Of a stretch of 64,000 bases of DNA, positions 12,669 through 18,646 are shown in pieces; positions within the stretch are counted from its first letter, which is position 1, and each line of letters starts with the position of its first letter. The DNA is from Halorussus marinus (lineage in GTDB: Archaea > Halobacteriota > Halobacteria > Halobacteriales > Haladaptataceae): assembly GCF_004765795.1 (NCBI RefSeq), contig NZ_SBIV01000003.1, positions 62,001 through 126,000 of the forward strand, in the 5' to 3' direction. Position numbers and translations under genes: made by a program. The notes beneath the pieces are model-generated. The model worked only from the letters and a program-made list of their open reading frames with translations, searched no databases and had not been told where the DNA came from.

Positions 12669-14441
12669 TCACATCGACCGCGGCGCGGCCACGCCGAGCA
12701 CGCCCAGCGCGTTCCCGACGGCGTGTTTCGCCGCCGCGACGAGCGCGAGGCGTGCGTCCCGCAGATCGTCGTCGACGTCGTCGCGGAGCACCGGACACTC
12801 CCGGTAGAACGTGTTGAACGTGTCGGCGATCTCGCGGGTGTAGGTCGCGACGACGTGGGGTTCGAGGTCCTCGGCGGCCGCCTCGATCACCGCGGGGAAG
12901 CGCGCGACGACTTCGAGCAGTTCGCGCTCCGCCTCGGCGTCCAGCACCGAGGCGTCGACGCCGGCGAGGGCGCCGTCGGTGTCGGCCGAATCGAGCCCGG
13001 CCTCTTCGAGGATTCCGCAACAGCGGGCGTGGACGTACTGGACGTACGGCGCGCTCTGGGCCTCGAAGTCGAGCGCGCGGTCCCACTCGAAGGTGATCGC
13101 CTTCGCGGGCTGTTTCGAGACGATGTCGTACCGAACCGCGCCGATGCCGACCTGCTCGGCGATGCGCTCGACGTCGTCGTCGGTCAGGTCGTCGTCGCGG
13201 ATCCGGTCGTCGAGCCTGTCTTCGACCTCCTCGCGGGCGCGGTCGACCGCCTCGTCGAGCAGGTCGTCGAGGTCGATGCCCGTGCCGGCGCGGGTCGACA
13301 TCTTCCCCTCCGGGAGGTTGACGTACGAGTAGATGACCTGCCGGAGCTGGTCGGTGTCGTTGTCAAGCAGGTCGAGCGTCGCCCGCATCTGGTCGGCCTG
13401 GAGCTTGTGGTCCTCGCCGAGCACCGTCACCGCGCGGTCGTAGTTCTGGAACTTCCACTCGTGGTGGGCGAGGTCCCGGGTGGCGTAGAGAGTGGTGCCG
13501 TCCGAACGGAGGAACACGAAGTTCTTCTCGATGTCGTAGGCCGCCAGATCGAGTTGCCAGGCCTCGTCCTCGTAGACCGCCTCGTCGAGGTCCTGAAGCC
13601 GGTCGACCACGTCGTCGACCGAGCCGTCGCGGATGAACCGGGTCTCCTTGACGAACTCGTCGAACTCCGCGGGGAGCCGCCCCAGGCTCTCGCGCATGCC
13701 GCCGAGCACGGTGTCGACGACCTCGCCGACGCGGTCGTAGGTCTCCTCGTCGCCGGCTTCGAGCCCCTGCATGATCGCGGTGATCTCCTCCTCGGCGGCC
13801 TCGACCTCGTCGGGGTCGCCGTCTTCGAGCACCTCGTTGCCCTTCCGGTAGTAGCGCACGAGGTCGTAGTCGGCCTTCTCGCGCTCGGGATCGGGCAGGT
13901 CGTCCTCGTCGAACGTCTCGTAGGCCCAGGTGAACACGGCCATCTGGCGCCCCGCGTCGTTGACGTAGTAGTGGCGGTCGACGTCGTAGCCCGCGAAGTC
14001 GAGCACTCGGGCGACCGCGTCGCCCACGATGGGGTTGCGCGCCCGGCCGACGTGGACCGGTCCGGTCGGGTTCGCGGAGGTGTGTTCGACCACCGCGGAC
14101 TCGCCGGTGGGGTCGAGCCGGCCGAACGTCTCGGACTGGGCCGCCTCGACGGTGCCCTCGTAGTAGGCGTCGCTCGCCCGGAAGTTGACGTAGGGGCCCT
14201 GTGCGGTCGCCGCCTCGACGAGATCGTACTCGGCGGCGTCGATCTCGTCGGCGATCCGGCCGGCGACCTGCGGCGGGGGCGCACCGACCTCGCCCGCGAG
14301 CCGGAACGCCGCGCTCGCGGCCAGCACGGCGTCGACGCCCTCGGGCGGGTCCTCGATACCGAGGTCGTCTGTCGGGAGGTCGAGCGCGTCGAGCGCGGAG
14401 GTGAGCGCCGCCGCCACCTCGTCGCGGAACTGGAGATACAT
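12669..14441 (-). CDS. argS: Arginyl-tRNA synthetase
   Basis: Charges tRNA-Arg. 590 residues, normal for class I ArgRS. The N-terminal Add-1 domain (about 1-105) precedes the ATP site [14 protein letters not shown] (the HIGH motif as HVGR, about residue 118-131). [12 protein letters not shown] is the KMSK loop, and the C-terminal DALR anticodon-binding domain follows. The start at 14441 ([11 protein letters not shown]) matches the start of the partial copy at 16590. The 5' 298 bp and the leader are duplicated behind the nhaC gene (see 16295-16628). This copy is intact and should be functional. Confidence 0.96.
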
Positions 14442-14480
14442 GCTACGAGCTTTTCGACCGGCGGGTAAATGGGTTTCTGA
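14144..14480 (-). repeat. Direct repeat, argS 5' end, intact copy
   Basis: The first 298 bp of argS plus about 39 bp of upstream leader recur in the same orientation at 16295-16628, at roughly 95% identity by eye. The shared leader includes GCTACGAGCTTTTCGACCGG. The two copies bracket nhaC. Confidence 0.85.
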
Positions 14481-14592
14481 AGCGTGTGAGCCCGTCCGCG
14501 CGGTCCGATCCGACGCCGACGCGCCGGCGCGAGTCGCGGACGAACCGGTTAGCCGTGGGCGTCGGCGCTCGCCGACGACGCGGCCGGCCCGG

Positions 14593-16191: not shown

Positions 16192-16294
16192 TTGTTCAAT
16201 TGCACCGCTCGAAATAGATAGGTAATCAACAATTCCTCTCCGATCGGCAGACTCGACACAACTACGGTGTCGCAAACGGCCCGGTCGCGGGGCA

Positions 16295-16628
16295 CCTCGA
16301 CGGTGCCCTCGTAGTAGGCGTCGCTCGCCCGGAAGTTGACGTAGGGGCCCTGTGCGGTCGCCGCCTCGACGAGATCTACTCGGCGGCGTCGATCTCGTCG
16401 GCGATCCGGCCGGCGACCTGCGGCGGGGGCGCGCCGACCCCGCCCGCGAGCTCGCCGCCGCGCTCGCGGCCAGCACGGCGTCGACGCCCTCGGGCGGGTC
16501 CTCGATGCCGAGGTCGCCTGTCGGGAGGTCGAGCGCGTCGAGCGCGGAGGCCAGCGCCGCCGCCACCTCCTCGCGGAACTGGAGGGACATGCTACGAGCT
16601 TTTCGACCGGCATAAAGGGGCTCCTGAA
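16295..16628 (-). pseudogene. Truncated, frameshifted duplicate of the argS 5' end
   Basis: A second copy of the argS leader and first ~98 codons, in the same orientation as argS and about 2.15 kb away. It keeps an ATG at 16590 (MSLQFREEVAAALASALDAL) and reads ArgS-like to about residue 45. Two single-base deletions (near 16466 and in GAGATCTACTCGG near 16375) then break the frame, and similarity stops at 16295 within the Add-1 domain. It cannot encode a synthetase. With the intact copy it brackets nhaC. The stretch 16156-16294 before it is the AT-rich nhaC promoter region. Confidence 0.85.
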
Positions 16629-16633
16629 CCGCG

Positions 16634-18646
16634 TTACCCCTCGAGCGCGGCCCATCGGAGCGCGTCGGCAAACGCGAGCGCCGAGTCGTAGCGCTCGGCG
16701 GGGTCGGCGGCGAGCGCGCGGGACGCGACGCCGGCGAGCTCGCCGCCGCGATCGTCGGCGAGCAGGCGGTCCGCGAGCGCACCGAGCTGGTAGACGTCGA
16801 CGGCCTCGGGTGCGGGGTCGTCTTCGGGCGGAGCGGACCGATCGGACCCGTCCAACCCCGCGGCGAGCCCCCAGTCACCCACCAGAACGTCGTCGCCTGC
16901 GATCCAGACGCTCTCGGGGGTCAACCGCCCGTGGACGGCGCCATCGCGGTGGGCCCGGTGGACCGCTTCGGCGGCCGCGGCGACCGCGCGGGCGATCCAC
17001 TCGATCGACCGATCTGCCGCGCGGGCGTCGAGCGTCGTTTCGACGGGGTCGGTCACCGCCCACGGCTCGGGGTCGACGCCCCACGCCCGCACGCTGAGAA
17101 CTCCCGAGGCGCCGAGATCGCTCCACGTCGCGAGCGCGTCGGCGAACGCGTCGTCGTCGACCGCGTCGCCGTACCGGTGGAGCGAGACCCGCTGGTCGGC
17201 GGGCGTCCGGGCTCGTCGAACGTCAGCGAGGGTGGTCTCGGCGATCCGTTCGCCGGGTTCGAGGTCGCCGATGTCCATCGACGCGTCGGGAGTCGAGTCG
17301 TCTCGACCGAACCGGCGGTACGCGCCGGCGAGCACCGCCGCGCCGACCGCGCCGCCGACCGCGAGCCCCGCGGTCGACGAGAGGGCGCGGTAGGCGTCGT
17401 AGAGCGGCGTCGACTCGGGCGGCGAGACGGCGAGGACGGTCCCGAAGACTGTCCCGAGATAGAGCGCTCTCCGGTCGAGGCGGGGGAGATACGTCAGTTC
17501 CCCGGGGTACTCGAACCGCCACTTCGGCGCGCCGGTATCCGCGTTCACCCCGTACAGCCCGTCGTCGTGACTGTGTACGACGGCGGTGCCGTCGGCGATC
17601 CCGATCAGGTAGGCGGCCGCCTCGCGCCCGGTCGCGAACCGCCAGCGCTCGGTCCCGTCCGCCGGCGCGAGCGCGGCCACGAACCCCTGCCCGCTGGCGT
17701 ACACCGCGTCGCCGACCCGGCGCGGCCGCCAGTCCAATTGGGCGCCCGCGTCGAACCGCCACCGCTCGGCGCCGTCGGACGGCGAGACCGCCCGGACGAC
17801 CGACCCGTCGTTGAGATACGCGCCGTCGTCGGTCACTGTCCCCGGGAGGCCGTAGGCCTCGTCCTCGCCGGTCGACACGCGCCAGCGTCGGGTCCCCTCC
17901 CGGTCGAACGCGTGGAGGGCCGCCCGCCCGGTGTCCCAGACGAACACGCGGTTCTCAGTCGCGCCCGCCGTCGAGATGTGGGGATAGGACGAGCCGTAGC
18001 CGGCGTCCTCGACCGGCTGAAACCGCTCGCGCCACCGGACGCGGCCGTCGGCCGCCGAGAGCGCGTACAGTTCACCCTCCGTCGTGCCGAGGTACGCGCG
18101 TTCGCCGTCGGACACCAGATCTGTCCAGGGAAACCCCTCGGCGTCTGTGAACCGCCACCGCTCCCGACCGTCCCGGATCGAGAGCGCGACGATACCGCCG
18201 TCACGCTCCACGAGGACCGTTTCCGACAGCGTCCCGTAGACGGCGGGGTTCTCGCTCCCGTCGAAGCGCCACCGGACCGCCCCGGTCGCGGCGTCGAGCG
18301 CGACGAGCCCGCTCGCGTCGACCACGAGGGCCAGCCCCGCCGCGAAGACCGCGTAGGGGCGAGTCTGGGAGCCGCGGCTCTCGACCTCGTACCGCCAGCG
18401 CTCCGCGCCGTCGGTCGAGATGCCCGCGACCCCTCGCTCGGTGACGGCGGTCAGCACGCCGCCTGTCGCGCCAAGAAGCGTCGCGGAGTCGCCCGCGTCG
18501 GTCGACCACCGAACCGTCGCCTCGGGGACGAAGGGGTGGTCGGTGATCGCGTCGGTCGCGTTCGTCACCTGCCAACTGCCGAGACTCGCGGCCGAGGCGG
18601 CGAGGCCCGCGCCGAGGAGCTCGCGTCTGTTGGGGGACCGCGTCAT
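16634..18646 (-). CDS. Tat-exported PQQ-like beta-propeller, TM helix and cytoplasmic pseudokinase
   Basis: A 670-residue protein. A twin-arginine-like signal (NRRELLGAGLAASAA, residues 6-20) is followed by a beta-propeller of about eight repeats, each ending WRY or WRF preceded by DG/TG (for example ATGAVRWRF, DGRERWRF, DGTERWRF), up to about residue 410. A transmembrane helix spans about 426-443. The C-terminal part (about 460-665) is protein-kinase-like. The HRD motif reads H572-G-R, the following LKPEN reads LTPES, the DFG motif is D591-W-G, and the beta-3 lysine position reads VSLHRY, so catalysis looks lost. The propeller should face outside and the pseudokinase inside. Start ATG at 18646; divergent from taw1. 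Confidence 0.82.
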   Translation of the reverse strand: MTRSPNRRELLGAGLAASAASLGSWQVTNATDAITDHPFVPEATVRWSTDAGDSATLLGATGGVLTAVTERGVAGISTDGAERWRYEVESRGSQTRPYAVFAAGLALVVDASGLVALDAATGAVRWRFDGSENPAVYGTLSETVLVERDGGIVALSIRDGRERWRFTDAEGFPWTDLVSDGERAYLGTTEGELYALSAADGRVRWRERFQPVEDAGYGSSYPHISTAGATENRVFVWDTGRAALHAFDREGTRRWRVSTGEDEAYGLPGTVTDDGAYLNDGSVVRAVSPSDGAERWRFDAGAQLDWRPRRVGDAVYASGQGFVAALAPADGTERWRFATGREAAAYLIGIADGTAVVHSHDDGLYGVNADTGAPKWRFEYPGELTYLPRLDRRALYLGTVFGTVLAVSPPESTPLYDAYRALSSTAGLAVGGAVGAAVLAGAYRRFGRDDSTPDASMDIGDLEPGERIAETTLADVRRARTPADQRVSLHRYGDAVDDDAFADALATWSDLGASGVLSVRAWGVDPEPWAVTDPVETTLDARAADRSIEWIARAVAAAAEAVHRAHRDGAVHGRLTPESVWIAGDDVLVGDWGLAAGLDGSDRSAPPEDDPAPEAVDVYQLGALADRLLADDRGGELAGVASRALAADPAERYDSALAFADALRWAALEG

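Follow-up and report, generated by a model that had tools for sequence, protein, structure and literature searches.

The gene at positions 16634..18646 of the window (the whole 64,000-nucleotide stretch of Halorussus marinus DNA analysed here) most probably encodes a Tat-exported single-pass adaptor, a reading to which we assign a probability of roughly 0.6. In this protein, an N-terminal, nine-repeat PQQ/BamB-type propeller situated outside the cell would act as a platform for binding proteins or ligands, with no PQQ cofactor, and a cytoplasmic C-terminal Hanks-type fold would perform no phosphorylation and, in the H. marinus orthologue (hereafter the query), probably would not bind ATP. The C-terminal domain would carry information by binding a cytoplasmic partner, in the manner of bacterial MviN and EssB/YukC. 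The gene itself, its domain order, the fold family of the C-terminal domain, the missing catalytic residues and their family-wide loss were established by sequence comparison.

The open reading frame (propeller-pseudokinase gene P0001, reverse strand, as are all its features given below) is intact, starts with ATG and encodes 670 amino acids with no stop inside, in a genome with a GC content of ~69%. Its orthologues are intact and syntenic, and their start sites match that of the query relative to the M..SPTRREFL leader. A frameshift, a pseudogene or a lone mutation could be ruled out, as the intact orthologues display the same losses. The initial annotation had proposed a Tat-like signal, a propeller outside, one transmembrane helix and a pseudokinase inside, a layout that agrees with what we found. 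Residues 1–30 (MTRSPNRRELLGAGLAASAASLGS...; 18557..18646) form a twin-arginine (Tat-type) leader (SPNRRELLGAG), in which a relaxed motif (NRRELL) is accompanied by a hydrophobic stretch, and the canonical motif is present in the leaders of orthologues (SPTRREFL or SLSRRGFL), making the twin-arginine leader a family-wide trait. A single transmembrane helix (residues ~421–444; 17315..17386) was recognized by hydropathy as well as in the AF2 model (helices at 414–423 and 425–444), and is directly followed by the basic segment AYRRFGR. The combination of a Tat leader, one transmembrane helix and basic residues immediately after it points to Tat export, with the propeller on the outer face and the C-terminal domain in the cytoplasm. 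A tatC-like gene (L077:4086-6002) adjoins the Haladaptatus orthologue, which itself is predicted to be exported by Tat, and a homologous ORF occupies the same position in another locus (L078).

Residues ~42–409 (17420..18523) were identified as a PQQ_2/BamB-type beta-propeller by Pfam, AF2 and Foldseek. The Pfam PQQ_2 model matched with an e-value of 8.6e-39 (134 bits vs. a gathering score of 27.6), and nine W-motifs were found (W47, 84, 126, 164, 205, 255, 296, 335, and 376), which upholds the propeller of the initial annotation and corrects its count of about eight WRF repeats. In the AF2 model, one closing strand is followed by eight four-stranded blades and a last, three-stranded blade, giving a pattern of nine blades in which the N-terminal strand closes the last one (block pLDDT mostly 80–94). 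The best Foldseek matches were two designed propellers, Cake10 (360 residues; rmsd 4.0) and Cake9 (359 residues; rmsd 4.2), followed by BamB and Cake8 (rmsd mostly 5–7), and the model is most like a nine-bladed design. As blade number is not always set by repeat number in designed propellers (PMC8458387), nine blades should be read as a prediction. The models for PQQ-dependent dehydrogenases (TIGR03074/03075) scored 25–28 bits vs. cut-offs of 480–833, and the entire protein of 670 residues contains no cysteine. Quinoprotein dehydrogenases carry two vicinal cysteines at the PQQ site; a PQQ enzyme was rejected because of the absent cysteines together with scores far below the cut-offs. BamB has a PQQ_2-type propeller and a similar predicted model, but the query reached 79 bits against TIGR03300 (cut-off 285) and 87 bits against the AfsK equivalog NF053615 (cut-off 1300, best stretch in the propeller), and orthology to either protein was ruled out by these curated cut-offs. 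Moreover, BamB is a lipoprotein of the outer membrane with eight blades, and an outer membrane is absent here.

The assignment of the C-terminal domain (residues ~459–670; 16637..17272) to the Hanks-type kinase fold was made by profile. The family profile, built from 29 relatives, matched PknB across the whole domain (positions 13–273, E = 3.5e-36), and a 13-member profile of the query's own subfamily matched it with E = 8.6e-20. When searched singly, 16 of the 29 members matched Pfam Pkinase; the query was not one of them, its C-terminal domain being too diverged to yield any Pfam match alone, and among PDB sequences it gave a weak match to PknI (E 7e-4). The AF2 model of the isolated domain had a pLDDT of 54, with an order of strands and helices that is compatible with a kinase at low confidence, and the Foldseek matches listed for it were all protein kinases, with PknB recurring among the best and none below 1e-3. 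The kinase fold proposed initially was borne out by the homologue search, with the poor structural model lending weak support. Several structural residues of the fold persist: His in HRD, Asp in DVYxLG and Arg in DPxxRY.

Alignment of the motifs, and of the query and family profile to PknB, located the catalytic losses: the beta-3 VAIK motif reads VSLH (17177..17188; Lys to His490), the alphaC Glu is replaced by Ala504 (17135..17137), and HRDxKPxNx reads HGRLTPESV (HGRLTPES at 16910..16933), in which HRD has become HGR (Asp to Arg) and the catalytic-loop Asn has become Ser579. A pseudokinase is defined by the absence of at least one of the VAIK Lys, the HRD Asp and the DFG Asp (PMC10211241); the first two are replaced in the query by His and Arg, and the third is present. 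No lysine occurs in the C-terminal domain and only one in all 670 residues, which makes a relocated (WNK-style) catalytic lysine impossible; this scarcity is not peculiar to the propeller-pseudokinase, because several neighbouring genes share it. The DFG motif reads DWG (GDWGL; 16868..16876), keeping Asp591 and Gly593, and the same DWG is found in haloarchaeal kinases with an intact HxDLKPEN-type loop (L094, L096, L097, and L109), so that it was discarded as a sign of dead catalysis. The initial annotation had therefore read all three motifs correctly, and erred in counting DWG among the losses. Judging by the remaining substitutions, catalysis looks lost in the query, as had been suggested, and the loss appears to be both family-wide and old.

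The Tat-propeller-TM-pseudokinase architecture was recovered ~37 times, in Halorussus and Haladaptatus as well as in a second haloarchaeal family (f13); other haloarchaeal families have relatives that combine a propeller and a pseudokinase in a varied layout. The query protein used alone as a search sequence had no match in the genome contigs, and a search for related loci with an alignment returned five loci, including ones from Halorussus aquaticus, Halorussus halobius and Haladaptatus. Of the propeller-TM clade (37 proteins), a single member has kept the HRD Asp, none the HRDxK Lys, four the beta-3 Lys, seven the catalytic-loop Asn and 20 the DFG Asp, and the full catalytic set was found in none. 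A tree built from 64 kinase-like domains placed the four whose motifs are intact in one group (95/89 support), and none of them fell within the propeller clade. These counts, together with the tree, indicate that the loss of the HRD motif is old, and that the other losses are patchy and occurred later.

The propeller-pseudokinase is 41–51% identical within the genus vs. 82–93% for most of its neighbours, a strong contrast in rates that fits weak constraint and a rapidly changing interface alike. That both domains diverge faster than the neighbouring genes, and that Lys, Asn and DFG Asp are lost patchily, would fit a reading in which the propeller does the work (envelope assembly or surface binding) and weak selection retains the kinase remnant only as an anchor or stabilizing cap. 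However, in the pairs compared the C-terminal domain was conserved about equally to or more than the propeller (56% vs. 40% identity for L001-L011, 83% vs. 69% for L026-L030), its C-terminal helix (SALxFADALRW) is near invariant, and the domain is present in every aligned orthologue. Its NG86 dN/dS remained below 0.6 in close pairs (0.25–0.56, with dS below ~0.55), similar to that of the propeller, and was ~0.5 or higher in more distant pairs such as those of the query; all of these estimates are rough in such GC-rich genes. The dead domain is therefore not decaying freely and is under some constraint, and we regard a role as a mere anchor or cap as rather unlikely.

An atypical enzyme, in which a nucleotide/metal site near Asp591 and migrated residues would support kinase activity, AMPylation or another transfer, appears unlikely as well. 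Missing motifs do not prove inactivity, as POMK is active without all canonical residues, and SelO and SidJ perform other chemistry (PMC10211241); Asp591 and Gly593 are present in the query, and the orthologues L013 and L017 retain the beta-3 Lys, the catalytic-loop Asn and the DFG Asp, so that some members of the family may still bind nucleotides. On the other hand, the DFG Asp is kept in only the 20 of 37 proteins mentioned above and is replaced by Gly, Ser, Asn or Glu in many orthologues, the query domain is devoid of lysine, and the positions that never vary in the alignment of the 13-member subfamily look structural (Trp, Leu, Pro and His, plus Asp, Arg and Trp in the C-terminal ADxLRW helix). 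For the query, we infer an absence of activity and a role as an adaptor.

A Pkinase search in 28 genomes of the family returned, among the loci read, propeller pseudokinases, soluble HEAT-type pseudokinases carrying HGALRP (in most of the 28 genomes) and RIO-type kinases. None of the loci read in these genomes encoded a Hanks-type kinase with an intact HRD Asp, a count that leaves aside unread weak matches (e.g., G011:C1:763480 and G001:C1:856680) and that very divergent kinases could escape. One of the HEAT-repeat proteins (L130; G000:C5:91260-91775, frame 301-2082) is soluble and has a C-terminal pseudokinase with HGALRPGAV and GDWGL, and its orthologues, present in most genomes of the family, are likewise dead. 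The idea that the membrane-bound pseudokinase pairs allosterically with an active kinase (of the RIO, Bud32 or ABC1 type) or with the soluble HEAT-pseudokinase of the same cell describes a common pseudokinase role (PMC10211241) and accords with the source genome, which encodes a RIO-type kinase as well as a HEAT-repeat pseudokinase, but a canonical Hanks partner is unlikely there given the search above, and genomic linkage to RIO/Bud32 was not seen, hence we give it little credence. Elsewhere, one haloarchaeal genome with nine matches had most of them in a cluster of kinase-like genes (G075:C1:1466912-1497857), which includes two with intact catalytic loops. Two divergent haloarchaeal proteins (L108; G223:C45:44500-50500) have the kinase-like domain first and the PQQ repeats after it, both without the HRD Asp, so the opposite polarity exists in haloarchaea too.

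In relatives, the gene order at the locus is Taw1 - NhaC - propeller-pseudokinase - argS - MinD-like - aeRF1, with NhaC absent in some of them and the argS side conserved through both genera. The window departs from this order (argS-NhaC-argS fragment-propeller gene-Taw1 vs. argS-propeller gene-NhaC-Taw1 in relatives), and a segment comprising the 5′ end of argS and the final ~20 bp of the propeller-pseudokinase gene occurs in two copies, at 16289..16653 (reverse strand) and 14138-14506 (91.6% identity, 369 bp). This is best explained by a local tandem duplication after which each gene lost one of its copies, with no part in the function of the protein. No conserved partner gene was identified among the neighbourhoods of the family; NhaC, ArgS, a PhnCDE-like ABC transporter and TatC were considered as functional partners and set aside, as the linkage is confined to parts of the family or involves housekeeping genes, and they provide leads, not evidence. 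A second propeller-pseudokinase subfamily (L080-L083) lies immediately downstream of the genes for a phosphonate-type ABC transporter (substrate-binding protein, ATPase, and permease) in four Halorussus genomes. A defence system was also ruled out, since the similarity to PADLOC defence kinases (PD-T4-6, MkoA; best query match 1.6e-8, over 90 aa of a 1112-position model) is restricted to the kinase core and the neighbours are housekeeping genes.

Bacterial PQQ-kinase proteins have the kinase first and the PQQ part at the C-terminus (PMC1262709, PMC12599244), which supports the earlier statement that the domain order is reversed here with respect to AfsK-type fusions. AfsK of Streptomyces combines nine PQQ repeats with a Hanks-type kinase, and its model NF053615 matches the propeller part of the query, but its kinase is N-terminal and active (PMC1262709), whereas the kinase fold of the query is C-terminal and appears dead. 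The actinobacterial ActPs1 resembles the query in joining a Hanks-type pseudokinase and PQQ_2 in one polypeptide, and is set apart by domain order, with PQQ_2 C-terminal to the pseudokinase instead of a Tat leader, N-terminal propeller and transmembrane helix preceding it (PMC12599244). ActPs1 proteins are further marked by deletions of their own, such as the lack of helix G. MviN (ActPs3) and EssB/YukC are membrane-anchored pseudokinases that act by binding, as proposed for the query, but they are bacterial, lack a PQQ propeller, have other extracytoplasmic parts, and function in the context of a peptidoglycan-synthesis membrane protein or the T7SS machinery (PMC12599244). Pseudokinases from the same order of archaea, i.e., kinase folds without catalytic motifs, appear as counts in the passages concerned: seven of eight kinases are dead in Halorientalis regularis (cited in PMC10211241), and one of five is a pseudokinase in Halobacterium salinarum (PMC1262709). 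In the open-licence literature searched, a haloarchaeal form with this reversed order, Tat export and a membrane span was not described. Haloarchaeal pseudokinases and actinobacterial pseudokinase-PQQ fusions of the opposite order are already known, so that the haloarchaeal Tat-propeller-TM-pseudokinase family adds a variant to them.

Little work has been done on prokaryotic pseudokinases, and those of archaea have been reported mostly as counts; the value of the present case lies in a defined, syntenic, multi-species family that joins an exported sensor-like domain to a dead kinase. As its members represent natural steps of decay, from those that keep Lys, Asn and DFG Asp to those with none, the family could be used to test the role of the kinase fold after catalysis has been lost. 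With no canonical Hanks kinase found among the loci read in the Halorussus/Haladaptatus family, phosphoproteins there would need another source, e.g., RIO-type kinases. It is conceivable, though we consider it doubtful, that Halorussus/Haladaptatus gave up Hanks-type phosphotransfer and have retained and diversified the kinase fold for binding alone, along two lineages, the membrane propeller-pseudokinases and the soluble HEAT-pseudokinases, which might perhaps form one phosphorylation-free transmembrane signalling route.
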